Virus record (IMG/VR): IMGVR_UViG_3300032053_000336
Coordinates: 1-30,779 of that record
Length of the DNA stretch: 30,779 bases
Direction: 5' to 3' (one strand)
Source of the DNA: a virus
In this document: positions 335 through 18,882 of the stretch, piece by piece
How positions within the stretch are numbered: position 1 is the stretch's first letter
Layout of the letters: the number at the start of each line of letters is the position of its first letter
Made by a program: the position numbers and the translations under genes
Notes under the pieces: generated by a model
Database searches by the model: none
What the model saw: only the letters and a program-made list of their open reading frames with translations
Told to the model about the DNA's origin: nothing

Positions 335-559
335 ATGGCAACGATAAAAAAAGCAAAGAACCTATCTGCAGGACCTAGTAAAATGACCAAGAGAGCTGGT
401 CCTATTGATCCTAATGGTAAATGGACAAAGGTACAAGAACGTACAATTGGTTCTATGAAGAAGGGTGGTAGTGTTAAGAAAGGAATGCACAAAATGCCTG
501 ATGGATCAATGATGAAAAACTCAATGATGAAAATGGGTGGTAAAACTAAAAAGAAATAA
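335..559 (+). CDS. Lysine-rich small protein, MATIKK family (74 aa)
   Basis: First of a run of lysine-rich genes. It starts MATIKKAKNLSAG and ends MKMGGKTKKK; 20 of 74 residues are Lys/Arg against 3 acidic ones, giving a strongly basic and probably disordered protein rich in Gly, Met and Lys. Repeated short units are GGSVKK and KMPDGSMMK. The MATIKK start and GGKTKKK end recur in the downstream genes, so it belongs to a local paralogous family. I recognise no enzyme domain. A nucleic-acid-binding or virion-cargo role is suggested only by charge and by position in the rightward, presumably late, module. Confidence 0.75.
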   Translation: MATIKKAKNLSAGPSKMTKRAGPIDPNGKWTKVQERTIGSMKKGGSVKKGMHKMPDGSMMKNSMMKMGGKTKKK

Positions 560-561
560 TC

Positions 562-669
562 ATGGGTGCACCTAAAAAAATAAGTTGCTGGAAGGGCTAT
601 GTCAAACAAGGCACAAAAAAGAAAGGAAATAAGACAGTTAATAATTGTGTTAAAGCTAAAAAGAAATAA
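562..669 (+). CDS. Small basic cysteine-containing protein (35 aa)
   Basis: ATG at 562 opens two bases after the previous stop, and TAA at 667-669 ends one base before the next ATG, so the gene fits the tight spacing of its neighbours. The 35-residue product begins MGAPKKISCWKGYVKQG and ends VNNCVKAKKK. Two cysteines (positions 9 and 29) bracket a basic centre with a CWKGY motif; such short Cys-Trp-x-Gly-Tyr peptides occur in other tailed phages, function unknown. It shares the KAKKK-type tail of the cluster but not the MATIKK start. Confidence 0.65.
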   Translation: MGAPKKISCWKGYVKQGTKKKGNKTVNNCVKAKKK

Positions 670-670
670 C

Positions 671-1072
671 ATGGCTACAATTAAAAAGGGTGTTAAAAAA
701 GCACAGAATGGTGATTCTACAGCTTATAAAAAAACTTTATCAGGTCTTACAAGTCAAGGATTAGACTTTGAAATAGGAAAACTTTCTAAAATGATCACTC
801 CAAAAAGTGCACCTTCTGTTATTCAGCAGAAAATAGATATTATTAAAAGAGAGAAATCTAAAAGATCAGGATCAAATACAACTTCTTCTGTTAAGAAAAA
901 TAAAACTGGTGGAGTAACCAAAGCTAAAGATGGTAAATGGATACAAAAGGCGACTTCCTCTATTAAACGTAGAGGTACAGAGGGTAAATGTACTCCTATA
1001 ACAAAGAAGGGGTGCAGTGGAAAAGCTAAATCATTAGCTTTGACATTTAAAAAAATGGCCAAGAAAAAATGA
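671..1072 (+). CDS. Lysine-rich MATIKK-family protein with C-terminal conserved block (133 aa)
   Basis: The start at 671 is chosen over a longer in-frame opening at 599 because it begins MATIKKGVKKAQNG, like its paralogues, and lies one base after the preceding gene. Residues 1-14 carry the MATIKK and KKAQNG signatures. The last third has KAKDGKWIQKA, then SSIKRRGTEGKCT and a GCSGKAKSLALTFKKMAKKK tail. That 'KWIQKA...KRRGTEGKCT...LAxTFKKMAK' arrangement resembles a short basic block I associate with phage and other large-virus proteins, but I cannot name a family. Its stop overlaps the next start (ATGA). Confidence 0.75.
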   Translation: MATIKKGVKKAQNGDSTAYKKTLSGLTSQGLDFEIGKLSKMITPKSAPSVIQQKIDIIKREKSKRSGSNTTSSVKKNKTGGVTKAKDGKWIQKATSSIKRRGTEGKCTPITKKGCSGKAKSLALTFKKMAKKK

Positions 1073-1293
1073 TATACGAACCTCACAATAGGGTGGATGT
1101 TAATACACCTAAAGGTGATGGAATGATATGGTTGGTTACAGATTATGGTCATGAAACTGATACAATATATACAATCATTATTAATGAGACAGGCGAAATG
1201 TGGCAATATGCACATAAGGACATTAGAGTGAAGAACAATATAACCTTTGGAAGAAATGGCAAGTTTAAAGAAAATAATACAATCAGCTCCTAG
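1069..1293 (+). CDS. Small SH3-like protein, paralogue of the gene at 12134-12418 (74 aa)
   Basis: The ATG overlaps the preceding stop (ATGA), indicating translational coupling. The 74-residue protein has a beta-rich pattern, VDVNTPKGDGMIWLVTDYG, then TIYTIIINETGEMW, then KDIRVKNNITFGRNG. A second gene in the leftward module has the same layout: a VxTPxGDG start, a DYG, a TIY/TIW strand, and a DIRVxxN end. The spacing suggests a small SH3/KOW-like barrel, an inference from pattern only. Unlike its neighbours it is not lysine-rich. It overlaps the next gene by 38 bases. Confidence 0.75.
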   Translation: MIYEPHNRVDVNTPKGDGMIWLVTDYGHETDTIYTIIINETGEMWQYAHKDIRVKNNITFGRNGKFKENNTISS

Positions 1294-1639
1294 GATGCGT
1301 GGTGTAACACCTGTTCCTAATGGTCCTCTTGTTAAGAAGAATGGTTCTACACTTAAAAAAGGTGGAACTGTTAAGAAGGCTCAAACTGGTGTAACAGAAA
1401 AAAGTAAAGTGGTATATCGTAATCCTGATAACACTTATAAAACTGTTATTAAGTCTAAGAAGGGTCCAGGAATGGAACAAAAGAGTGTTAAGGAAGTTCG
1501 AACATTCAAAGGTCTTATAAAAGGAATGCCTAAAACATCAGGAGCTCTTCAAAAGAAGAATGAACCAAGACAAGTTGCAGAACAACCTAAAATGATTGCA
1601 AAAAATGGTAATAAATTAAAATCTAAAAATAAGAAATGA
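1256..1639 (+). CDS. Lysine-rich MATIKK-family protein with block B (127 aa)
   Basis: ATG at 1256 is preferred to the TTG at 1247 because it gives MASLKKIIQS, matching the family start. The protein carries VKKNG, LKKGGTVKKAQTG (about 33-45), and at 77-96 a block SVKEVRTFKGLIKGMPKTSG. The gene at 2693 repeats that block as SVKERRTVKGFLTGAPKAGG (121-140), so the two share a conserved module beyond lysine richness. The tail NGNKLKSKNKK is basic. It overlaps the SH3-like gene by 38 bases and the lipoprotein gene by ATGA. Function unknown. Confidence 0.75.
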   Translation: MASLKKIIQSAPRMRGVTPVPNGPLVKKNGSTLKKGGTVKKAQTGVTEKSKVVYRNPDNTYKTVIKSKKGPGMEQKSVKEVRTFKGLIKGMPKTSGALQKKNEPRQVAEQPKMIAKNGNKLKSKNKK

Positions 1640-1821
1640 AAAAGTTAATTCTAATTGCTGCTGTAGCATTTACAGCTTGTGGTTCACCTAAGACGCAGGA
1701 AACCAATTGTGATTCTACATGTACAGATTCTTGTACAAAGGTGTGTACAGATTCTACGAAAATAGACACTCTTAATCCAAGAGGTACAGTTGACACAACT
1801 ATTCTTAAATCAGTAAAATAA
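1636..1821 (+). CDS. Small Thr/Cys-rich lipoprotein (61 aa)
   Basis: MKKLILIAAVAFTAC is a short type II signal peptide: two lysines, a hydrophobic core, and a relaxed lipobox ending at Cys15, followed by GSPK. The mature part is about 46 residues, rich in Thr, Ser, Asp and Cys (NCDSTCTDSCTKVCTDSTK). Its composition is opposite to the basic neighbours. The start overlaps the previous stop (ATGA). Phage lipoproteins can act as outer-membrane spanins or superinfection-exclusion factors; the position a few genes after a holin candidate suits the first, but nothing in the sequence decides. Confidence 0.75.
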   Translation: MKKLILIAAVAFTACGSPKTQETNCDSTCTDSCTKVCTDSTKIDTLNPRGTVDTTILKSVK

Positions 1822-1827
1822 TTTAAA

Positions 1828-2451
1828 ATGGCAACAATTAAAAAGGCTATGAAAGCCCAGAAAGGTAAGACAGTCTCTCCTACTTACAAGAATTTACCAA
1901 TGGGTGTAAAAAATGAAAATTATCAAATAACAGGTGTAAGTAAAAATATTAAACCTAGTTCAAGTGATAGTGCTAGATATAGAGGAGGTTTTGAACAAGG
2001 AATGAAAGGAAAGAAAGGAATGCCTAACGAAGGTAATATTGAGAAAATGGGAAGATGGGAAGGTCAGAATGCTTCTAAAGCTCCAAAGAAATCTAAAATG
2101 GGTAGTAAAGTAAAGAAGGCTCAAAATGGTACTAAAGAAAGTAAAAATCCTTTTGTTAAAGGTTATCAAAAAAAGCTTGAAAGAGTTAAATCTGAAGGGA
2201 ACCCAAGCAATCCACCATTAAAGAATACATATTCTACTCCTAGTAAAAGTGGTCCTAAACTTAAATACAGTGTCTCAGCAGATACTACAGGACTTGCTGC
2301 AGGAAAGAAAGAATTTCCATCAAAAACAACTAATGTAAGAACTGGAAAGACTAGTGAAGGAATAATTGGAAGAAAAGCAGTAGAGTATAGAATGAAAAAT
2401 CCTAATAAAGTAGGATTTAAAACTGGTGGTAAAATGTCTAAAAAGAAATAA
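1828..2451 (+). CDS. Lysine-rich MATIKK-family protein with block A (207 aa)
   Basis: Largest member of the family. It begins MATIKKAMKAQKGK and ends FKTGGKMSKKK. A KKAQNG unit lies at about 97-101. A block DTTGLAAGKKEFP at 152-164 is repeated in the next gene as DTSGYAAGKKAGYP (24-37). The middle contains Gly/Lys/Met-rich low-complexity sequence (GMKGKKGMPNEGN). No enzyme motif or membrane segment is visible. The next gene starts two bases after the stop, so they are surely co-transcribed. Confidence 0.75.
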   Translation: MATIKKAMKAQKGKTVSPTYKNLPMGVKNENYQITGVSKNIKPSSSDSARYRGGFEQGMKGKKGMPNEGNIEKMGRWEGQNASKAPKKSKMGSKVKKAQNGTKESKNPFVKGYQKKLERVKSEGNPSNPPLKNTYSTPSKSGPKLKYSVSADTTGLAAGKKEFPSKTTNVRTGKTSEGIIGRKAVEYRMKNPNKVGFKTGGKMSKKK

Positions 2452-2453
2452 CT

Positions 2454-2690
2454 ATGTCTAAAATTAAAAAAGCACAGACAGGTGTTTCTACTAAGAAAGG
2501 TAGAACTACCATTAATGTTACAGACACATCAGGGTATGCAGCTGGTAAGAAGGCTGGTTATCCTGCACAAATGATTTCTCCTAAGACAAAATATTCTAAA
2601 GGTGACACCACTAGTGTAACTGTTAATCGTAAAATGATAAAAAAAGCTATTGGTAAACAAAAAATGGGTGGTAAAACTAAAAAATCATAA
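2454..2690 (+). CDS. Lysine-rich MATIKK-family protein, short (78 aa)
   Basis: Starts MSKIKKAQTGVSTKKG and ends KQKMGGKTKKS, both family signatures. Residues 24-37 hold block A (DTSGYAAGKKAGYP), shared with the preceding gene, and the region after it (SPKTKYSKGDTTSVTVNRK) could form beta strands. It reads like a reduced copy of the 207-residue neighbour, consistent with tandem duplication. Two-base spacers separate it from both flanking genes. No function can be assigned. Confidence 0.75.
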   Translation: MSKIKKAQTGVSTKKGRTTINVTDTSGYAAGKKAGYPAQMISPKTKYSKGDTTSVTVNRKMIKKAIGKQKMGGKTKKS

Positions 2691-2692
2691 TT

Positions 2693-3208
2693 ATGGCAAC
2701 AATTAAAAAAACTGCTAAAAAAATGCAGATGGGTGGTGGAATCAAACCAATGATGAAAAAAGGTGGTTCATTCCCAGACTTAAACAAAGATGGTAAAATC
2801 ACTAAGAAAGATGTTCTTATTGGTAAAGGTGTTCTTCCTAAGACAGCTAAGAAAGGAATGAAAGTTAAGAAGGCTCAGGATGGTAAAGAAGTTGGAGATT
2901 ATTTTTGGCAAACTGGTAAGTATAAAGGAGGAATGGTAGGAGATAAAAGACCTATGACAAATGTTAAAAAAAGTAATGATAAAAATTATAGAAAAAAAAC
3001 AACATATTTAGACTACAAAGATACAGAGGATGGTAGTGGTATTTCAACAAGGAGCGTAAAAGAAAGAAGAACAGTAAAAGGATTTTTAACAGGAGCACCT
3101 AAAGCAGGAGGTAAATTTGTAGAAACTTTAAGAAAAGGCAGTTCTATAAAAAAGTCTATGAAGACTGGTGGGAAGATGACTAAAAAATGTATGACAGGTT
3201 GTAAATAA
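2693..3208 (+). CDS. Lysine-rich MATIKK-family protein with EF-hand-like loop (171 aa)
   Basis: Starts MATIKKTAKKMQMGGG. Residues 29-40, DLNKDGKITKKD, match an EF-hand/dockerin-type calcium loop (Asp, Asn, Asp, Gly, Ile and a final Asp at the expected positions) and are followed by VLIGKGVLPK. KVKKAQDG lies at about 57-64, block B (SVKERRTVKGFLTGAPKAGG) at 121-140, and the tail is KTGGKMTKKCMTGCK with two cysteines. The FPDLNKDGKIT segment is a motif I associate with small phage proteins in general. Calcium binding is inferred from spacing only. Confidence 0.75.
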   Translation: MATIKKTAKKMQMGGGIKPMMKKGGSFPDLNKDGKITKKDVLIGKGVLPKTAKKGMKVKKAQDGKEVGDYFWQTGKYKGGMVGDKRPMTNVKKSNDKNYRKKTTYLDYKDTEDGSGISTRSVKERRTVKGFLTGAPKAGGKFVETLRKGSSIKKSMKTGGKMTKKCMTGCK

Positions 3209-3214
3209 TTAACT

Positions 3215-3391
3215 ATGGCTGCAAATAGTATGACTGCTGGTAAAGCTAAGAAGTCTGGTAAGCCTAGAATGGCTTCAAAGGTAGGTATTCCTAAGAAGGA
3301 TAAGCCTTTTTCCAAGATGAAATCTATGGATGATAAAGCAATACGCACTGCTCCTATGCAACCAATGAAACAAAAAAGACTTTCTAAATAA
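3215..3391 (+). CDS. Lysine-rich small protein, end of cluster (58 aa)
   Basis: ATG at 3215 is six bases past the previous stop and TAA at 3389-3391 is two bases before the glycosyltransferase start. The product begins MAANSMTAGKAKKSGK and ends MKQKRLSK; it is rich in Lys, Met, Ala and Ser, with GKAKKSGKPRM and GIPKKDKPFSKMKSM units. It lacks the exact MATIKK start but shares composition, size and direction with the cluster. Function unknown. Confidence 0.65.
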   Translation: MAANSMTAGKAKKSGKPRMASKVGIPKKDKPFSKMKSMDDKAIRTAPMQPMKQKRLSK

Positions 3392-3393
3392 TA

Positions 3394-4128
3394 ATGAACT
3401 TACCAAAAGTATCTTGTATATGCCCTACATTTTGTAGGGTATATTTATTAGAGGAGGCTATAGAGTCTTTCCTTAGACAAGATTATGCAGGAGAAAAGGA
3501 ATTGATTGTATGCAGTGACTTCCTTCCTCAGGAGTTAGTGTATGAACATCCTTCTGTCAAGATAATTAACCTATCTGAAAGAGCTCCTAATCTTGGTGCT
3601 AAGAGAAATGCAACATACGCACATGCTACAGGAGATCTTCTACTAACATGGGGAGATGATGATATACATCTTCCAGGAAGGATATCTAGAATGGTGAACA
3701 AACTGCAAGACAAAGAGTTTCTATATGAAGGACAATATTATGTTCTATATGGAGGAAAGCTTTATTGGGAACGTGGTAAAACATCAGGAGCACATATAAT
3801 TACAAAGAGACTGTTTGATGAGCTAGGAGGTATTCCAGAGATGAACTCTGGAGAAGACCAAGCTTTTAACACTCTTGTTAAAAATAAGATGGGAGAGATG
3901 CACACATGCACAGAACCTCCTCAATTTCTATATAGATATTCTACAGGTAGAGCACATGTTTCTCAGTTTGGGAACGACAAACCTGATAAGAGAAGTGGAT
4001 ATGATCGTGTGTTTGATAGTGCAATGCAATACATCACCACTGGAATAGAACCAAAAGGTAAAATACAGCTTCAACCAAAATGGTCCAAGGATTGGGTGGA
4101 AGAAGTTAAACATGCTATAAAAAAATAA
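3394..4128 (+). CDS. Family 2 glycosyltransferase (244 aa)
   Basis: A GT-A fold glycosyltransferase, expected to transfer a sugar from a nucleotide donor. The opening VSCICPTFCR (7-15) is the first strand and loop of the GT2 Rossmann-like domain, GAKRN (68-72) is a donor-contact segment, and WGDDD (86-90) is the metal-binding DxD-type motif. About 240 residues is the size of a catalytic domain alone; no membrane segment is seen, so it should be soluble. It is the last gene of the rightward unit, directly after the lysine-rich cluster, which suggests modification of a virion or host-surface component rather than of phage DNA; the acceptor cannot be read from sequence. Confidence 0.85.
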   Translation: MNLPKVSCICPTFCRVYLLEEAIESFLRQDYAGEKELIVCSDFLPQELVYEHPSVKIINLSERAPNLGAKRNATYAHATGDLLLTWGDDDIHLPGRISRMVNKLQDKEFLYEGQYYVLYGGKLYWERGKTSGAHIITKRLFDELGGIPEMNSGEDQAFNTLVKNKMGEMHTCTEPPQFLYRYSTGRAHVSQFGNDKPDKRSGYDRVFDSAMQYITTGIEPKGKIQLQPKWSKDWVEEVKHAIKK

Positions 4129-4151
4129 AGCCCTCAACTAAGAGGGCTTTA
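4126..4151. terminator. Bidirectional terminator between convergent units
   Basis: A 9-bp GC-rich stem (aaagccctc at 4127-4135, gagggcttt at 4142-4150) with a 6-base loop has A-rich sequence on the left and T-rich sequence on the right. It begins inside the glycosyltransferase stop codon and lies 22 bases beyond the end of the last minus-strand gene, so it can stop transcription from both sides. Confidence 0.9.
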
Positions 4152-4172
4152 TTATTTGGCATGCAAGAAGTT

Positions 4173-4562
4173 TTATTGAAACAGATTATAGAATCTCTCT
4201 GCATCAGCAGGATCTAAATAAATCTCACTCTGGAAAGTGTTACGTTCTCTTTTGTAACCTTTCATCTTGTTTGTTTTAATGTCTAGATCAGGCACTTGTT
4301 GTACTCTCTCATGAAGATCATCTAATAGAACAAGAAGTCTGCTATCATCTGCTGTAATTGTTCTAATCACTTTATCAGGATTAAAACTGTCTCTAAATTC
4401 TTTAAATTCTGGGTTCTCAGGAGTTCCTGAGACAAGCTCTTTACGAGTGTAGAAAAACTGTTTCATTGTTGGTTTTGTTTTATATGGGCAATTGACACAA
4501 CCATTGTTGCAACAAAAGCCTCTTGTTAATAAAAATTCTCTGCTTAAAGGTTTATTTGCCAT
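4173..4562 (-). CDS. Cysteine-motif protein, DUF5522-like N-terminus (129 aa)
   Basis: Residues 14-27, RGFCCNNGCVNCPY, contain Cys17, Cys18, Cys22 and Cys25 in the CC-x3-C-x2-CPY arrangement typical of the small DUF5522 family of unknown function; I infer metal binding. The rest (about 30-129) is charged, with helix-like EFKEFRDSFNPDK and DDSRLLVLLDDLHERVQQ, and matches nothing I know. It is the last gene of the recA operon: its start overlaps the PhoH gene by 11 bases, and the bidirectional terminator follows. Confidence 0.75.
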   Translation of the reverse strand: MANKPLSREFLLTRGFCCNNGCVNCPYKTKPTMKQFFYTRKELVSGTPENPEFKEFRDSFNPDKVIRTITADDSRLLVLLDDLHERVQQVPDLDIKTNKMKGYKRERNTFQSEIYLDPADAERFYNLFQ

Positions 4563-7465: not shown

Positions 7466-9337
7466 TTATTCTACTGTGCAAGCTCCACCTGCACATGCAT
7501 TAGTTTGTCCAAACTCTACATGATCTTCTATTTCAGTCACCTTAGTGAGATCTAGAGAATGTAAGTTAGCAATTCTTTTATTATATTCTTCTTCTGTAAT
7601 GTCTTCAAAAGGAGGCTGAACATAACTTCCATTATCATATGGTAGTACACTCAATCCATTATACACATCTCTGTTCTCCCACATCCACTCTCCTACATTA
7701 GGCCATTCTCCTTCTCTAATAGAGATTGTAGCACTTACATTATGTGTATTATCTCCAGACATATGTCCTGCCATGATCCATTCCTGAGAGAACTTCTTAA
7801 CACGTTCTAATGTGTCAATAGCTGTCTCTGTTCTAAATATAGAACCTTCAGGTGCCTTGATAGGAATTCTTACACAGATGGTGTCATTTGGTCTAAGGAT
7901 ATCATCTTCACATAATTCAGGATGATTTACCATCATGTAAGCAGCAAGATCTTCACTCTTTCCAAATCTCATTGTTCTTAGGTAGTATGGTGCATGCCAT
8001 GCATGAATACCACTAGCTGTTCCTAATACACAAGATGTTGTTCCAGAGGGCTTAATACAAGTCACTCTAGCTGCTTCATTGATTCCTGTTTGAGAAGATA
8101 TCATCCTATTTACAACCTTGGCTGTGTTAGCAGCATAATCAAGGTTTAGTTTTAGAATTTCTCCTGAACCAATGCCTGTCATACCAATACCTAAAAGAGC
8201 ATCTTTTTGTGTTGTCTGTCTCCAGATGTTACGAAGGTAATGAAAGTCTGTAAATCCTGCCTGCAGAGTTCCAAAGAATGAAGCTACAGCTACACGATTA
8301 TTAAGATCTTCCTGGTTTGTAACATCACTTACATTGATTTCACATAAGTTACAGAACTGATATGGTCTAAGTCCTATCTCACAACAAGGATTAGTTCCCC
8401 AATCTTTATTGTTAGTCCAGTAGATTCCTGGTTCACCTGAACCAGAAGCTTCTATTCTCTTCCATAGATTGAAGAATTCCTCAGCTAGTATATCTCCCCT
8501 TTCAAGAACAGCAGAGTTGTTAGCCCTACCTCTTTGTTCATTTAGTTCCCACCATGCTCCATACTTAGATGTAATCATCTCTTCATCATCATGAGAGAAC
8601 AATGAGATCATTGCACTCCTTCTGATACCACCTGCTAACACAGAGTTTGCAATGTGACACAAGATATCATGACATTCTAAAGGAGATAGTTGTTCTCCAT
8701 CTTGCTTTCTCTCCATAACAGCATCAACATGTGTGAGACATATCTTCAATGGTTCAGGTCCAGGAGCTTTACCACCAGCTGTAACAAGTCTTGCACCTTT
8801 CTGTCTGATAGCTCTGAAATCAAACTTAGGTTTTGCACCACCCTCAAAATAGAATTTCATTAATACTTTCACTGCATCAGCCCATCCCATGATAGAATCT
8901 TCAATGAGCCAAGTTTTTTGTTTGTAGGTTTCTTGCTTTATAATAGCAGGGAGGTTTGCAACGTGATGTTTCTGTACAGAATATCCTACACCTGTTCCTC
9001 CTAATAAGAGGAACATTGTTTCACTAAAACAGTGTAGACTATCTATAGGAAGGAAACAGCAATTATATATTCTTGCATTGTTCACTTCTGCAGCTGTACC
9101 AGCAAACTGTAAAGCTCTCATAGAAGGTAACACCTTCTTCTCTCTAATCCATACAGCACTAGCCTTAACAGCTTCTTCTAGGTATGGGTATTTCTTGATC
9201 ATCATATCCTGGTAGCGATCAACTATTTCATCCCAGGTTTCTCTTCTCTTTAGCTCTGGTAGATACTTTGCATATTTACCAAACACAGTCAGGGAACTTA
9301 ATGCAGATAGCCCCAAATCTTCTTTTAATTTGTTCAT
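7466..9337 (-). CDS. nrdJ: Adenosylcobalamin-dependent ribonucleoside-triphosphate reductase (623 aa)
   Basis: Class II reductase making deoxynucleotides from ribonucleoside triphosphates with a B12-derived radical. Visible signatures: the N-terminal LSSLTVFGKYAKYLPEL and RRETWDEI segment, GGTGVGYSV (113-121), an active-site region NPCCEIGLRPYQFCNLCEI (316-334), KPSGTTS (429-435), and a C-terminal redox pair NACAGGAC (Cys615 and Cys620). The overall pattern is that of the monomeric triphosphate reductases found in many phages; no ATP-cone is seen. A class I NrdA would need a partner subunit, and none is in the window. Start overlaps the endonuclease VII stop (ATGA), so both are co-transcribed from the promoter at 9921-9952. 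A terminator follows. Confidence 0.93.
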   Translation of the reverse strand: MNKLKEDLGLSALSSLTVFGKYAKYLPELKRRETWDEIVDRYQDMMIKKYPYLEEAVKASAVWIREKKVLPSMRALQFAGTAAEVNNARIYNCCFLPIDSLHCFSETMFLLLGGTGVGYSVQKHHVANLPAIIKQETYKQKTWLIEDSIMGWADAVKVLMKFYFEGGAKPKFDFRAIRQKGARLVTAGGKAPGPEPLKICLTHVDAVMERKQDGEQLSPLECHDILCHIANSVLAGGIRRSAMISLFSHDDEEMITSKYGAWWELNEQRGRANNSAVLERGDILAEEFFNLWKRIEASGSGEPGIYWTNNKDWGTNPCCEIGLRPYQFCNLCEINVSDVTNQEDLNNRVAVASFFGTLQAGFTDFHYLRNIWRQTTQKDALLGIGMTGIGSGEILKLNLDYAANTAKVVNRMISSQTGINEAARVTCIKPSGTTSCVLGTASGIHAWHAPYYLRTMRFGKSEDLAAYMMVNHPELCEDDILRPNDTICVRIPIKAPEGSIFRTETAIDTLERVKKFSQEWIMAGHMSGDNTHNVSATISIREGEWPNVGEWMWENRDVYNGLSVLPYDNGSYVQPPFEDITEEEYNKRIANLHSLDLTKVTEIEDHVEFGQTNACAGGACTVE

Positions 9338-9882
9338 TTGTTTAAATATTTAATTGCATTTGTTAAAAATTCTACATTATCGTCAAATTGACCAAGTCCT
9401 TTATTACACTTTTCGCATAATATCCCTCTCACTTTTCCTGTTTTATGACAGTGATCTATGTGAGATGAAGATTCATCTATAATAATTTTACAAATTACAC
9501 AAGCATTATATTGATCAATTAACATTTGATTAAATATTTCTTTTGTAATTCCATATCTATCGAATCTAAAAACCTCTTTATGATATTGTTTATTATATAT
9601 TGTTTGACAATCTTTACATCTAGACTTTAACTTATCATCACCATTTGTTCCAAAATCATTAAAGTCTTTATAAATATTACAATATGAACAAATTTTCTTA
9701 TTGTTTTTTATCAAACAGCCTTTTCCTCCAAGTTGTATAGAATTAGAACAAGATCTACAAGGTTTATTATATTTTCTAGCTTTATAAAAATATGATTTAC
9801 TTGCAAAATTTCTCATTTCTCCACAAATTGGACATGGAAGTCTATAAATTATTTCTGTTGGCTGTTCTAATCCTAAATCCAT
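9334..9882 (-). CDS. Recombination endonuclease VII family protein (182 aa)
   Basis: The C-terminal half is an endonuclease VII/HNH fold: YGITKEIFNQMLIDQ, CVICK, then SSHIDHCHKTGKVRGILCEK and CNKGLGQFDD, giving four zinc Cys and the catalytic DHCH. The first half has more Cys pairs (CPICG, CRSC, CSYC, CKDC), likely zinc fingers. Family members resolve branched DNA or act as homing nucleases. ATG at 9882 is chosen over a TTG at 9966, because a promoter and A-rich leader fill the 90 bases between. The protein starts MDLGLEQ; the reductase has the same DLGL at residues 7-10. Its place directly before the reductase gene suits a mobile endonuclease. Confidence 0.85.
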   Translation of the reverse strand: MDLGLEQPTEIIYRLPCPICGEMRNFASKSYFYKARKYNKPCRSCSNSIQLGGKGCLIKNNKKICSYCNIYKDFNDFGTNGDDKLKSRCKDCQTIYNKQYHKEVFRFDRYGITKEIFNQMLIDQYNACVICKIIIDESSSHIDHCHKTGKVRGILCEKCNKGLGQFDDNVEFLTNAIKYLNK

Positions 9883-10541: not shown

Positions 10542-11085
10542 ACTCTTTTAGTTTTTCAATGTCAAGAATTTCATTTTCTAAAATAAACCCACTCCAAACT
10601 TCCATAGATTCATCAAAGTCTACACCAAGCTTTTCTTCCCAATACTTCCTAAGATCATCTGTCTTATTAAAGACACGATGTTGCAAGGACACTTCATCTT
10701 TGAAATATCCATTACGTTTCATCTTAACAACCTTTGGAAACACTTCTTGAAATGCTGCAGAAGTTTTAGAATATTTGCCTTGCTTAACAAGCTCAATGTC
10801 TCTTTTGAATTTACCATCAAGCTGATATACAATTACAACATATCCATCTTCATAATCATAATCCTCGACTACACTTCTAACACTTTCATATTCCTCCTGA
10901 AGGAAGTCTCTGAATAGACCTATATCATTTGGTTTAAATAATAAATACACACAGTCGTTATACACTGTGTCTGTTTTAACATCATCAATATATCCATTGA
11001 TGTAATTGTGATGCTGTAACTTATCCCTTCCTATCTTTAGTGTGGGGACAATAAATATACTTGTGATTGTTTTCTTTATATCCAT
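10534..11085 (-). CDS. Hypothetical protein (183 aa)
   Basis: Starts MDIKKTITSIFIVPTLKIG. The alternation of strands and helices (NDCVYLLFKPNDIGLFRDFL, GYVVIVYQLDGKFKRDIELV) suggests a compact alpha/beta protein, with YWEEKLGVDFDESMEVW near the end. I do not recognise it. It overlaps the PD-(D/E)XK nuclease gene by one base (stop/start TAATG) and the downstream small gene by 8 bases, so it probably serves the same recombination or replication unit. Confidence 0.75.
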   Translation of the reverse strand: MDIKKTITSIFIVPTLKIGRDKLQHHNYINGYIDDVKTDTVYNDCVYLLFKPNDIGLFRDFLQEEYESVRSVVEDYDYEDGYVVIVYQLDGKFKRDIELVKQGKYSKTSAAFQEVFPKVVKMKRNGYFKDEVSLQHRVFNKTDDLRKYWEEKLGVDFDESMEVWSGFILENEILDIEKLKEYV

Positions 11086-12137: not shown

Positions 12138-12418
12138 AAATCTTTATTTGTTTTAGTTTTAAAATCCATGTTTCTAACAGCTCCTGGAGGAAGCTTCTGA
12201 ACAATCTCATCTAGCTTTTCACAATCCCACCCTTTGCCATTCATAGGATTGCCCCATACACGAATGTCATCAGAATAGAAATGTTTCATTACGCCTTTGT
12301 CCAGTCTCACCACCCAAATAGTGTTCACATTAACTCCATAGTCTATTATGAACATAGCTTCACCATCTCCTAATGGAGTGTGCACCTCAATTGTTGGATT
12401 AAGTTGTAGCATCATCAT
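12134..12418 (-). CDS. Small SH3-like protein, paralogue of the gene at 1069-1293 (94 aa)
   Basis: Start set at the first of three consecutive ATG codons (12418, 12415, 12412); a longer opening at 12442 would overlap the upstream gene by 44 bases. The core IEVHTPLGDGEAMFIIDYG, then TIWVVRLDKGVMKHFYSDD, then DIRVWGNPMNGKG aligns with the rightward gene's VDVNTPKGDGMIWLVTDYG...TIYTII...DIRVKNN. A small beta barrel is inferred. The C-terminal 35 residues (KLDEIVQKLPPGAVRN) are unique to this copy. Confidence 0.75.
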   Translation of the reverse strand: MMMLQLNPTIEVHTPLGDGEAMFIIDYGVNVNTIWVVRLDKGVMKHFYSDDIRVWGNPMNGKGWDCEKLDEIVQKLPPGAVRNMDFKTKTNKDL

Positions 12419-12653
12419 AAGCTTTCTGTTTAAATGCGTCAATAATATATGGGACCATAGCCCTTACTTCCCTAGGAACTCTCTGAAAGAACCATCTAAC
12501 GTCCACTTCATAGCTGTTTCCATTAATGTCTGTTCCTTTTGGATAGATTAACCAGAACAAATGCTCCTGATTATCGTATTGTATTTTTCCTTCGTACCAG
12601 TGTTCAACAAAAGATACATCCTTGTTAATCTCAATTTTTAAATCGTTACTCAT
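12399..12653 (-). CDS. Hypothetical protein, intact counterpart of the remnant at 13399-13470 (84 aa)
   Basis: Starts MSNDLKIEINKDVSFVEHWY. The segment LKIEINKDVSFVEHWYEG aligns with LKVSINRDPSFTEIWYDF of the truncated ORF on the far side of the GIY-YIG gene, so the two share a 5' end. The rest (KIQYDNQEHLFWLIYPKG, then WFFQRVPREVRAMVPYIID) suggests a beta sheet with a C-terminal helix. Function unknown. It follows the endonuclease gene by three bases. Confidence 0.8.
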   Translation of the reverse strand: MSNDLKIEINKDVSFVEHWYEGKIQYDNQEHLFWLIYPKGTDINGNSYEVDVRWFFQRVPREVRAMVPYIIDAFKQKAYDDATT

Positions 12654-12656
12654 TTA

Positions 12657-13385
12657 TTAATTTTTAAATTTCCAAATATACCCACCTGCAGATAGGTAAT
12701 GTTTCTTGCCTTTACAACAACCAGATATTGAAGAATTTGATATATTCAACTCTCTTTCTATATCCATAGTACTCTTCCACTCTTTTATAAATTCTCCTGA
12801 TAAACTATATTGACAAATAGATTTTGATCTTTTATCTTTATAAGAATAATTTTTACTAATATCATATTCATTTTTATAAACAAATAAGTAATCTTTAAAC
12901 TTATCTCGTTTGCCTATTAAAACTCTATGAATAGAACTTGGAGAAGTATTTATGTGCTGAGCAGCATCTGATACAAGAGAAAATTCCTTTAAATAGTTTC
13001 CATTTAAATCTAACATTACAATAGGTCTAATTGCCATACTTTTTAATTTATTACTAATCCTTAGTTTATCATTATCAGTTATTTTTCCTTTTTCAGGATG
13101 AGTTGCTTTGATATTATATCCATACTTAGGATTATGTACATTAAGAATTGTACACCAATAATGTTCTTCAGATTCTAAAAATTCTAAAGAACAAGTAACA
13201 AGTATTTCAAAAGAAAAGTTTTCTTGTCCATATTTGTTCCATGCTTTTTGTAAATGTTCATTACCATGAACTTCTCTATTTAAAGTATTTATATGATTAC
13301 AAAATCTTTCTTTAAAGTTTTCTGTATAACCTACATAAAGTTTCTTTGTAATCAAATTTTCTATAGTGTATATTCCTGATTTCAT
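12657..13385 (-). CDS. GIY-YIG homing endonuclease with NUMOD1 repeats (242 aa)
   Basis: A free-standing mobile nuclease. MKSGIYTIENLITKKLYVGYT contains the GIY and YVG strands, with the catalytic Arg in FKERFCNHI and a Glu in ESEEHYW. Two NUMOD1-type DNA-binding repeats follow: RPIVMLDLNGNYLKEF...SIHRVLIGK and SICQYSLSGEFIKEW...SISGCCKGK. Start set at 13385 (MKSGIY, usual for the family); a longer frame begins at 13409 (MIFEEMWY). The gene lies between a 5' remnant of a phage gene and the intact homologue of that gene, which points to insertion at that locus. Confidence 0.9.
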   Translation of the reverse strand: MKSGIYTIENLITKKLYVGYTENFKERFCNHINTLNREVHGNEHLQKAWNKYGQENFSFEILVTCSLEFLESEEHYWCTILNVHNPKYGYNIKATHPEKGKITDNDKLRISNKLKSMAIRPIVMLDLNGNYLKEFSLVSDAAQHINTSPSSIHRVLIGKRDKFKDYLFVYKNEYDISKNYSYKDKRSKSICQYSLSGEFIKEWKSTMDIERELNISNSSISGCCKGKKHYLSAGGYIWKFKN

Positions 13386-13398
13386 ATACCACATCTCT

Positions 13399-13470
13399 TC
13401 AAAAATCATACCATATCTCTGTGAATGAGGGGTCTCTGTTAATACTGACTTTCAATTGTTGTTCTTCCAT
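13399..13470 (-). pseudogene. Truncated 5' copy of the gene at 12399-12653
   Basis: ATG at 13470, five bases after the preceding stop, opens a 23-codon frame: MEEQQ then LKVSINRDPSFTEIWYDF, then TGA. From residue 6 it aligns with LKIEINKDVSFVEHWYEG of the intact gene beyond the GIY-YIG gene; similar at protein level, diverged at DNA level. It ends where the endonuclease gene begins. I read it as the remnant of a gene interrupted or displaced by the endonuclease. Confidence 0.7.
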
Positions 13471-15719: not shown

Positions 15720-18068
15720 CTAGTCTTCTAATAATGTTTCAACAATTTCTTCTATTAGTTCTGTAGGAACATCTTCATTCATCTTGATGTTGTAGTTCTT
15801 CCAGTCAAGTCTTCTTCTATGATATTTAAGCATATCTCTTATGATAGAAATCATAGAGTCTTTTTCCCAATCACCACCACCATAATAGGAAGACTTGTCA
15901 AGCAAGGTTTCAACAAACCCATATCTGTCTAAGAAAGCTTTCACTTCTTTATAGATAGGATAGATTTCACCATCAAATAAATTGTTCTCTTCTGCTAAAG
16001 CCACTATAGCTGAATAGAATGTATCACCTGCATATATGAAATGATTATTCCTATACTCTTCAAGGAGCTCAAGTTTGCTAGTAAGATCTTCTGACAAGCA
16101 TTTTAATCTTTCACTCTTACTAAAAGTATCATTATACTTATCTATCAATTGCTTAACTAAATATGCAGTGACAATTCTCTTAAATGGTTTGTTCTTACCT
16201 TCCATAAATGTTTCAAGTTTTATCCAGTTATGTAATTCAAATTTCTCCATGTTCTTCATCTCTCTCTCTGAGACAGCTACAAACTTAATATGTGTCTTTT
16301 TAAGACCATGTGTAATCTTAAAGAGATGATCCATAGCTGTTGTGTCAGCTTCAACCTGACGACCATACACTGTGAGATAACTTTTCTTATGAAGATCTTC
16401 CAATTTATATGTTGTAGGAACCCATTTACAGTTTTTACCATCTACATATCTCTCAAGAGGAGAAGCTTCTTTACCAACAATCTCACCCTTAAGTTTGATT
16501 CTTCTCACCTTAGGACCAATTGTTCCTCCAGATATGGTGATTTTAGCCTTCTTCTTGGAATCAATCCAATCCTGAGGAACTTCTATATCCTCAATCTTTG
16601 GAAGACTGCCAACATACATAGCTACAATAGATTGAAACTCCTTAATAGCAGCTCTCCATAGATGTCTCTGGATCTTTCTAAGACCAATTATGTCCATATA
16701 AGTTTCATAATCACTTGACTTATTTATATTACCAAGCTTATAAGATTTAACCTTCTTAATTAGAAACTTATTATTTCCATATCCTGAGTTCTTACCCATT
16801 AGCTCTCTCAAATAATCTTTCTTCTTACCAGATAGTTTATCATCATAAATAAAATGTCTGTCTTTGGTCATGTCACCAATTCTGATAACACTGTCCCAAT
16901 GTCTTTTACATTCTCTGAATTTACCATGATCTATCTTAAACCTCACATGATATTCATTAAGAATATAATCTCTATTTCTGTGAAGAGTTTTGAGATCGAG
17001 GATGTTGATACCTTTCAGTTTAGGATGAGCTATTCCTGTTGTAGAAAATTGTTCCAATCCAGAAATATCATACGTTTTGCCATTAAAATCAAGGTTTCTT
17101 TTATCACTACTATAATAGTTCATGATTTCAATGATGTTAGTTGTTTCAAATATACTTTCGTTATATTTCAACACCATGTATTCAGAAACTTGTTCAATCT
17201 TCTCCATTATAATGGCTTTAGCTTCCTTAGTATATCTAATAGACTCTCTATTAGGCGTAGGAAATAGTCCATCAGTTAATCCAAATCTCAATGCTATTGG
17301 GAAATATATAGTGTCAGGAATTCCCACCTTATCAAACTCCAAAGGATAGTAGACATTGTCTAAGCATATATGCATTTTACTATCTGTAGCAAGAGGAGAC
17401 TGTTGAAAATGCTCACTTCTGATGATTTTAAAATTGTTATCTACATCACCACCAGGAACATCAAAATACACACTCTCAAAATAAGCAAGTTGCTCATTTA
17501 TCTTACTATAAAAGTCACTTCTGTCATAATACTGAACAGGAACAATCACCTTTACACCATTTCCTTCTTTTGTAGGCTTTTCATACAAAAGATCAATTGT
17601 ATTGGTGTCTTCTCCTTCATACATCATATACTTACGTTCCATACCATCCTTACGACATACAAAATAGAAACTAGAACTATAAGCTAAGGGAGCTTTGAAA
17701 CCTAGACCCATCATTCCTAACTCTGTTGTACTATTACGCTTTGTACTCTTACCATATTTACTAATGATGTTTCTTACATCATCTGCATCTAGACCAATAC
17801 CAAAATCTTCAACACAGAAATCATAGTTGTTAGATCCATTTGGCTTAAATGATACAACGATTGGTTTGTCAACACCAGCTCTTCTATGACTATCGAGTGC
17901 ATTAGATGCACATTCTCTGATAGTTGAGCCTATTGAATCTGAATAGAGATTCTTACTTAACATCTGCATCAACACTTGTGCAGAATCTAAGTCTAATGAC
18001 ATACCAATTGAGTCTTGTGATTGTCCTTCTTGCTGGACAATAGCTTCTGTTTGCTTCTCAAGTATCAT
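15720..18068 (-). CDS. rIIA: rIIA-like GHKL ATPase (782 aa)
   Basis: An ATP-binding protein of the GHKL fold (gyrase, Hsp90, histidine kinase, MutL). Within the first 125 residues: N box RECASNALDSH with E52, N56, D59; G1 box EDFGIGLD with D88, G90, G92; G2 box LGMMGLGFKAP with G118 to G123. The remaining roughly 650 residues resemble no simple family; length is close to T4 rIIA. Starts MILEKQ, and the HNH gene upstream also starts MILEKQ with different codons. Its ATG overlaps the HNH stop (ATGA). rIIB follows after a hairpin. Confidence 0.9.
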   Translation of the reverse strand: MILEKQTEAIVQQEGQSQDSIGMSLDLDSAQVLMQMLSKNLYSDSIGSTIRECASNALDSHRRAGVDKPIVVSFKPNGSNNYDFCVEDFGIGLDADDVRNIISKYGKSTKRNSTTELGMMGLGFKAPLAYSSSFYFVCRKDGMERKYMMYEGEDTNTIDLLYEKPTKEGNGVKVIVPVQYYDRSDFYSKINEQLAYFESVYFDVPGGDVDNNFKIIRSEHFQQSPLATDSKMHICLDNVYYPLEFDKVGIPDTIYFPIALRFGLTDGLFPTPNRESIRYTKEAKAIIMEKIEQVSEYMVLKYNESIFETTNIIEIMNYYSSDKRNLDFNGKTYDISGLEQFSTTGIAHPKLKGINILDLKTLHRNRDYILNEYHVRFKIDHGKFRECKRHWDSVIRIGDMTKDRHFIYDDKLSGKKKDYLRELMGKNSGYGNNKFLIKKVKSYKLGNINKSSDYETYMDIIGLRKIQRHLWRAAIKEFQSIVAMYVGSLPKIEDIEVPQDWIDSKKKAKITISGGTIGPKVRRIKLKGEIVGKEASPLERYVDGKNCKWVPTTYKLEDLHKKSYLTVYGRQVEADTTAMDHLFKITHGLKKTHIKFVAVSEREMKNMEKFELHNWIKLETFMEGKNKPFKRIVTAYLVKQLIDKYNDTFSKSERLKCLSEDLTSKLELLEEYRNNHFIYAGDTFYSAIVALAEENNLFDGEIYPIYKEVKAFLDRYGFVETLLDKSSYYGGGDWEKDSMISIIRDMLKYHRRRLDWKNYNIKMNEDVPTELIEEIVETLLED

Positions 18069-18499
18069 ATTTTATTTTTTAGTTTTTTATATTGGTTACC
18101 TTTAAATTGTTTTTTGCCTTTTTGTAAGGCATGATTTTCATTTTCTTCTTTGCTTACCCATTCTAAATTCCAAATTTCATTACATTCTTTATTACAGTTT
18201 ATGTGATTTACTTCTGGTTTATTTTCTGGATTACATAGAAAATGTAGAGCAACAAGTCTGTGTACTGAAAATTTATAAGACTTATCAGAATGTAACTGTA
18301 CAACTAGATAACCTCTTGAGGTTTTAAAAGGTTTTTTAATTTTTTCATTAACTTTTCTAATTCCTTTTTCTCCAGTTTTACTTGTATGTATTGCAGTTCT
18401 CTCTAATGAAAGTATATTTCCTTTACTAGATATTTTATACAAACCTTCAAATCCTGTTACATCTTTCCAGACTTCTAAGTCTTGTTTTTCTAAAATCAT
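18065..18499 (-). CDS. NUMOD4-HNH homing endonuclease (144 aa)
   Basis: NUMOD4 (EVWKDVTGFEGLYKISSKGN) is followed by an HNH_3 domain: FSVHRLVALHFLCNP, VNHINCNKECNEIWNLEW and KEENENHA. A compact homing endonuclease. ATG at 18499 overlaps the upstream stop (ATGA); the 50 extra codons open to 18646 lie inside the upstream gene and are rejected. The first six residues MILEKQ equal those of rIIA, whose start lies at the end of this gene, so the enzyme seems to have inserted at the rIIA start while keeping a copy of it. Confidence 0.88.
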   Translation of the reverse strand: MILEKQDLEVWKDVTGFEGLYKISSKGNILSLERTAIHTSKTGEKGIRKVNEKIKKPFKTSRGYLVVQLHSDKSYKFSVHRLVALHFLCNPENKPEVNHINCNKECNEIWNLEWVSKEENENHALQKGKKQFKGNQYKKLKNKI

Positions 18500-18882
18500 T
18501 TTTGAATAAAGTTTAATGTTAATAATGCTTCTCTTGATTTTTCGTATATTTCTCTGTCTTCTTGCTCTGTAAATATGTCTTCTATGTTTGTTATTTTCAT
18601 CACTCTTGTCGTATGTACAACATTTATGTATGATTTCCATAAACACTTTGTAGTAAACCCTTTCTCAAACTTTTTAGTTCTCCAACTTTTCTTTTTTTCT
18701 TCATCAGATTCTAATAGCCATTCTTGGTAAGTGTTATATACACTACTAGGGCTTCCCCAATAATAATATTGTAATGTACCACGACCATCTCCTGCATACC
18801 ATCCAAAGCTTATATGATTTCCATCGCTAATAGCAATAAAGTCTCCAGGGTGTAACACACCTCCATATTTTATTTTTCTCAT
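18496..18882 (-). CDS. Hypothetical protein (128 aa)
   Basis: Starts MRKIKYGGVLHPGDFIAISDG and continues HISFGWYAGDGRGTLQYYYWG, a Gly- and aromatic-rich beta pattern resembling a small SH3-like barrel. The second half is charged and helical (WLLESDEEKKKSWRTKKFEKG). I know no function for it. Before the endonuclease arrived its stop codon probably overlapped the rIIA start directly. Confidence 0.75.
   Translation of the reverse strand: MRKIKYGGVLHPGDFIAISDGNHISFGWYAGDGRGTLQYYYWGSPSSVYNTYQEWLLESDEEKKKSWRTKKFEKGFTTKCLWKSYINVVHTTRVMKITNIEDIFTEQEDREIYEKSREALLTLNFIQK

Follow-up and report, generated by a model that had tools for sequence, protein, structure and literature searches.

The second start of a phage rIIA gene is probably a replacement copy carried by a homing endonuclease cassette

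How do a homing endonuclease gene and the conserved gene behind it come to begin with the same six residues, written in different codons? The question arises in a stretch of viral DNA of 30,779 nucleotides (IMG/VR record IMGVR_UViG_3300032053_000336, positions 1 to 30,779; hereafter the window), on whose minus strand a 128-residue gene (gene X, 18496..18882) is followed by a NUMOD4-HNH homing endonuclease gene of 144 codons (18065..18499) and then by an intact rIIA gene (782 aa, 15720..18068) that encodes a HATPase domain. For named phages only distant matches were found, and the relatives used throughout the argument are metagenomic contigs; the recurrence of the same junctions in independent contigs argues against an assembly error.

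Two MILEKQ starts at the rIIA locus

Both genes start with MILEKQ, encoded by ATGATTTTAGAAAAACAA in the HNH gene (18499-18482) and by ATGATACTTGAGAAGCAA in rIIA (18068-18051), and each ATG forms an ATGA overlap with the stop before it, that of gene X (end at 18496) or of the HNH gene (end at 18065). Codons 2 to 5 differ between the HNH gene and rIIA (ATT/ATA, TTA/CTT, GAA/GAG and AAA/AAG), and codon 6 is CAA in both. A search of the window for ATGATHYTNGARAARCAR returned exactly these two starts where the expected number is none, and when 2,163 further pairs of adjacent genes from the collected relatives were compared, not one had four or more of the five post-methionine residues in common. 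The codon comparison confirms what the first-pass annotation had reported, an identical hexapeptide with four of five codons changed and an overlap at each start, and the survey of gene pairs agrees with its judgement that chance is very unlikely.

A match of this kind could also be a property of the enzyme. By its domains the HNH protein is predicted to be an ordinary NUMOD4-HNH nuclease; both NUMOD4 (56.2 bits, cut-off 23.4) and HNH_3 (33.2 bits, cut-off 24.8) score above the Pfam curated cut-offs, which places it in the NUMOD4-HNH homing endonuclease family, and its sole relative found in the PDB is I-HmuI (1u3e, E 2.5e-11). If MILEKQ were intrinsic to this branch of the family, the resemblance to rIIA would be a coincidence, and the first-pass annotation had named relatives at unrelated loci with the same start as the observation that would point that way. 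We looked for such relatives and found no close one beginning with MILEKQ at an unrelated locus. Those in other phages start close to the NUMOD4 tryptophan with other residues (MEEVWK, MDTEVW, MNKEIWK, METWK or MSEEW), and one distant relative, in phage D6E, begins MILQEIW. As MILEKQ is a fixed feature of rIIA and the HNH gene spells it with native rIIA codons, we give this explanation practically no weight. Six NUMOD4-HNH loci from unrelated phages yielded no clear case of a captured start. At one locus, in Streptococcus phage SP-QS1 (L226, 1498 and 2055), a NUMOD4-HNH gene with the start MDTEVW is followed by a gene that begins MDTVYQ, the third codon being changed; only MDT is common to both, which is too short to judge.

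With rIIA as the query, 80 related loci were returned, and MILEKQ is kept in nearly all of them. Gene X is the native upstream neighbour, standing directly before rIIA in many loci that lack the HNH gene, many of them with the same ATGA overlap. The contig L003 reads ...ATCAAAAATGATTTTAGAAAAACAA straight into rIIA, thus combining the overlap with the exact 18 nucleotides that now head the HNH gene (junction ...ATCAAAAATGATTTTAGAAAAACAAACAGAAGCC), and the same rIIA start with the codons of the HNH gene is found in L002 and several other HNH-free phages. The HNH gene of the window therefore holds the native rIIA start (18482..18499), and rIIA begins with a variant copy (18051..18068). Both predictions made from the window, that HNH-free relatives would carry the 128-residue gene directly before rIIA and that some alleles would begin with the codons of the HNH gene, held true, and empty sites of the L003 type support the earlier proposal that the endonuclease uses a captured rIIA start and leaves rIIA with a second, divergent one.

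The variant copy is unusual for this position. Among 64 distinct HNH-free alleles encoding MILEKQ, codon 3 is TTA in 53, codon 4 GAA in 63 and codon 5 AAA in 63, so that the GAG and AAG of the replacement start each occur once. HNH-free alleles differ from the captured form at no more than four positions, the replacement at five. In the body of HNH-free rIIA genes, GAG makes up 35% of glutamate codons and AAG 49% of lysine codons, against about 1% at codons 4 and 5, which indicates that the native start is constrained and that alleles with the homing gene break this constraint; outside its start, rIIA uses CTT, GAG and AAG as ordinary codons. One HNH-free allele, L075, has an rIIA start a single base away from the replacement, and this likeness suggests that the replacement may be a foreign allele rather than a recoded one.

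These codon frequencies can be read in terms of expression only, in that the duplication would give the homing gene a ready start and stop/start coupling, with the codon changes being neutral drift after the initiation constraint was lifted and no escape from cleavage involved. The ATGA overlap at either end of the HNH gene fits this reading, as does the one at the ribonucleotide reductase described below, and the replaced codons match ordinary usage. For rIIA an expression-based reason and drift after relaxed constraint are possible. We also considered the firm claim that selection for cleavage resistance had recoded the start of rIIA and rejected it, as drift after the loss of the initiation constraint fits that single site equally well. 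The evidence that bears on expression as a general explanation comes from gene Y (see below).

The HNH gene is present in a second phage at the same place (L082). The window and L082 are 96.3% identical in the HNH gene, compared to 73.8% in gene X and 83.8% over the initial 340 nt of rIIA, and the conserved block runs from the captured ATG to just behind the second MILEKQ. An HNH gene 96% identical between flanks of 74-84% indicates that the unit is mobile. What precedes the captured start goes with the recipient: the stop of gene X in L082 does not overlap, as in some alleles that lack the homing gene. With its absence from L003 and others, the HNH gene is thus a presence/absence polymorphism at a fixed site. 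In L082, rIIA itself is broken after about 120 codons (from ~4790) by a further insertion, whose open reading frame resembles a LAGLIDADG enzyme, possibly in a group I intron.

The comparison with L082 bears on a simpler history, in which the start of rIIA was duplicated in tandem in the host phage, the HNH gene entered between the copies later and the second copy drifted. Slippage could produce two copies of 18 nt, and rIIA would need no more than a single event. However, the unit occurs in two diverged phages, that of the window and L082, and its replacement start falls within the conserved block; moreover, the arrangement is found again at several genes. At gene Y the replacement is specific to the cassette and the captured end to the recipient. 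We therefore regard local duplication as very unlikely.

A further possibility is that the homing gene sits in a self-splicing intron and that the captured codons are the 5' exon. Many phage homing genes are located in introns, and the uracil-DNA glycosylase-like gene of L032 and L033 (~3484-4560), split by an Endo VII-type gene in an apparent intron, looks like such a case. A search of the window gave no Rfam match to a self-splicing RNA, the captured codons form one frame with the HNH gene, and the rIIA frame behind it is complete with its own ATG, so that splicing is not needed; the locus thus lacks both the catalytic RNA and the open exon of a group I intron with a homing gene, and the probability of this alternative is close to nil. 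The presence/absence polymorphism of both the HNH and the GIY-YIG gene and the intact downstream genes with their own ATGs are, with the lack of an Rfam match, what is expected of free-standing homing genes outside any intron or intein.

Displaced 5' ends at other genes

All three homing genes of the window show a displaced native 5' end and a variant start on the target gene. The GIY-YIG locus, which the first-pass annotation had put forward as a second case of a homing gene at a duplicated 5' end, is upheld as such, and the Endo VII-type locus adds a third. At the GIY-YIG locus the order on the minus strand is orphan native 5' end, GIY-YIG gene and intact gene Y (84 aa, 12399..12653; homologues in about 100 relatives). 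The orphan frame (13399..13470) reads MEEQQLKVSINRDPSFTEIWYDF up to its stop, and its first 65 nt (13470-13406) are the native gene Y 5' end, with one mismatch to the uninterrupted gene Y of L001 up to the insertion point. The homing gene (12657..13385) encodes Pfam GIY-YIG and NUMOD1 domains and starts MKSGIYT, with a longer frame from 13409 possible. Gene Y then begins with a replacement 5' part (MSNDLKIEINKDVSFVEHWYEG..., 12513..12653), which is diverged from L001 over ~141 nt, and near-identical native sequence resumes at ~12512. L001 lacks the GIY-YIG gene, matches the window at 99.8-99.9% identity to either side of it, and represents the empty site. L163 and L027 form a second near-isogenic pair with and without the homing gene, in which the replacement covers only roughly the length that was captured. 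The gene Y start of L001 (~10599-10666, corresponding to 13470-13406 of the window) carries a TGG to TGT change, Trp to Cys, exactly at the GIY-YIG insertion point, and judging from this position the change could mark a cleavage-escape allele.

Homologues of the GIY-YIG gene in L163, L164, L165, L166 and L168 have the same insertion point as in the window, after TGGYAYGA of the recipient's own gene Y, with different native left ends. Besides a replacement 5' end, the five related cassettes carry a cargo gene of one of two kinds, placed after the captured end of gene Y and ahead of the GIY-YIG gene: a zinc-ribbon-like protein of 83-85 aa in L163 (2246-2497), L165 (492-749) and L168, and an unrelated protein of ~81 aa in L164 (2259-2504) and L166. 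Between L164 and L166, identity is 96.4% over border and cargo, 92.6% in the homing gene and 96.5% in the replacement, compared to 75.0% in the captured end and 82.5% in the gene body. A near-identical replacement beside a captured end and body that are not indicates that the replacement moves as part of the cassette. In L004 the left half of this layout is present with yet another native 5' end, and the contig ends within the homing gene.

The amino acids at the insertion point tell against expression as the whole explanation. All gene Y replacements alter the motif E[IV]W[YH]EG that lies there (EHWYEG, ERWHEG, EIWREG), a motif kept by 68 of 83 distinct gene Y copies that lack the homing gene. 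The change exactly at the insertion point is an indirect hint that the replacement may resist the nuclease. Furthermore, the orphan 5' ends of gene Y do not serve as starts for the homing genes. Expression with neutral drift thus appears rather unlikely as an account of these loci.

At the third locus the captured start lies in front of ribonucleotide reductase. Reductases of relatives that lack the homing gene begin MDLGL[DEQ].LS (ATGGATTTAGGATTAGA..., MDLGLEALSKITVFSKYAKY) behind a leader with a C-rich and a T-rich stretch. In the window such a leader and MDLGLE (9865..9882, minus strand) begin the Endo VII-type homing gene instead (9334..9882; Pfam Endonuclease_7, E 9.8e-23), and the reductase behind it (7466..9337) has an altered N-terminus, MNKLKEDLGLSALSSL, with an ATGA overlap between its start and the stop of the homing gene. 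The length captured varies: in L103/L104 and L177 the Endo VII gene starts with about 12 native reductase codons (MDLGLEALSKIT), and L024/L046 retain no more than the leader and ATGGA.

Similar remains stand at further sites. L049 has the orphan MENYNTAKGMLLGAPIPQQTKSYKP, ending in a stop, plus an intact gene MQTQNYNITKNILVNAVIPSSTRSYKA. In L085 and L111 the orphans MKCKTCGKNAESEYC and MKCKTCGAKAESDFCFRSIC, each with its stop, precede a GIY-YIG gene that is followed by an intact gene beginning MRQCKIEGC... or MKQCKIEGC..., and L003 has a short MNWDK remnant ahead of a uracil-DNA glycosylase-like gene. In the best cases captured ends match native genes of relatives without the homing gene at 0.77-1.00, and the replacements reach 0.46-0.78 in the same natives. 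When peptides upstream of homing genes were compared with their own next gene, 6 of 65 scored at least 25 where 1.4 were expected; this enrichment is only moderate because the replacements have diverged, which makes natives without the homing gene the better comparison. A duplicated 5' end is absent from some homing gene insertions in this phage family. An unbiased search of every pair of adjacent genes for N-termini in common returned mostly tandem paralogues. A run of small Lys/Gly/Met-rich genes on the plus strand of the window (335-3391), with repeated N-termini (MATIKKA, MSKIKKAQTG), looks like a set of tandem paralogues. In L067, L056, L069 (locus start) and L120 (1980-2453), homing genes lie at stop/start junctions and their 3' ends seem to repeat the tail of the upstream gene (ending KIKYI or EKNGNL), possibly a related way of keeping the junction.

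A proposed cassette that replaces what it displaces

These comparisons demonstrate the architecture, the empty sites, the repeated appearance of the arrangement at several genes with nucleases of three families, and the horizontal movement of the cassette together with its replacement copy. From them we consider it likely that the HNH gene belongs to a group of free-standing cassettes that insert in the 5' end of a conserved gene, leave the native start upstream and restore the gene with a variant copy, the nuclease presumably cutting the native form and the replacement resisting it. A cassette would enter at one point within the 5' end, and the recipient's native start and first codons would stay upstream as the start of the homing gene itself (rIIA, ribonucleotide reductase) or as a short orphan frame (gene Y and others), so that the homing gene could be expressed from the recipient's leader and upstream translation. 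The 3' end of the cassette would supply a variant copy of the displaced codons and restore an intact gene, the stop of the homing gene usually overlapping or lying close to the new start. The nuclease would target the native 5' end and cut it on or close to the point of insertion, the replacement copy would be spared, and the cassette would spread by double-strand-break repair. An identical replacement would rebuild the target site and form direct repeats; a variant copy avoids both.

The second rIIA start is then probably a replacement copy that moves along with its homing cassette and presents a site that cannot be cut. The first-pass annotation had suggested a common insertion strategy that preserves translational coupling. 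The recurrence of the arrangement bears out the common strategy; coupling is perhaps only part of the reason for it, and the second start is best read as a replacement borne by the cassette. On balance we lean towards the wider view that phages harbour recurrent natural cleave-and-rescue cassettes, with HNH, GIY-YIG or Endo VII nucleases and sometimes cargo, which would invade the 5' ends of conserved genes with a cleavage-resistant recoded copy and use the recipient's own start or leader for expression.

If this reading holds, selfish DNA-cutting genes could invade important genes without breaking them, and it would be clear how a free-standing homing gene can enter a conserved one with no need for splicing and with the target left in one piece. 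The signature (an orphan or captured native 5' end, a homing gene, and an intact gene with a variant 5' end) would mark probable cut sites and make homing directly testable. It also carries a warning for annotation, as start codons beside homing genes may be displaced copies.

Comparison with known mobile elements

The HNH gene resembles the I-HmuI type in its NUMOD4 and HNH domains. It differs in that I-HmuI is intron-encoded, whereas the gene described here has no recognisable intron and starts with captured host-gene codons. In engineered recoded-rescue (cleave-and-rescue) gene drives, a nuclease is combined with a recoded copy of its target that restores function. The phage cassettes would be a natural counterpart, differing in that only the 5' end is recoded and in that their resistance is putative.

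Like the seg and mob genes of T4, the cassettes are intron-less nuclease genes adjoining conserved phage genes, a type inherited by break repair with co-conversion (PMC2988022). The T4 seg genes, however, are intergenic and cut hundreds to thousands of bases away (PMC2988022), and mobE in nrdA of Aeh1 and mobA in gene 60 split their gene in two, where the cassettes restore it.

A search of the open-licence literature found no description of a 5'-end version in phages, which is weak evidence of absence, and did find a C-terminal case in fungi. There, mobile ORFs with duplicated C-termini occur in mitochondrial genes, namely atp6 of Allomyces and atp6, atp9, cox2 and nad3 of Glomus (PMC3630166). 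In both systems a free-standing endonuclease gene in a conserved gene brings a diverged replacement of a gene end, foreign and largely synonymous in the fungal case, and the native end is left behind (PMC3630166). The phage elements share with the fungal type the native end left in place and the diverged in-frame replacement, and lack its replacement at the 3' (C-terminal) side. The fungal ORFs replace the 3' end and leave the native C-terminus downstream, whereas in the phages the 5' end is replaced and the native start lies upstream, where in two cases it drives the endonuclease; the nucleases also differ, being HNH, GIY-YIG and Endo VII in the phages and mainly LAGLIDADG in the fungi. The phage elements thus work like the fungal mobile ORF system without being members of it, and that system is their closest parallel, of which they are the 5' mirror image.
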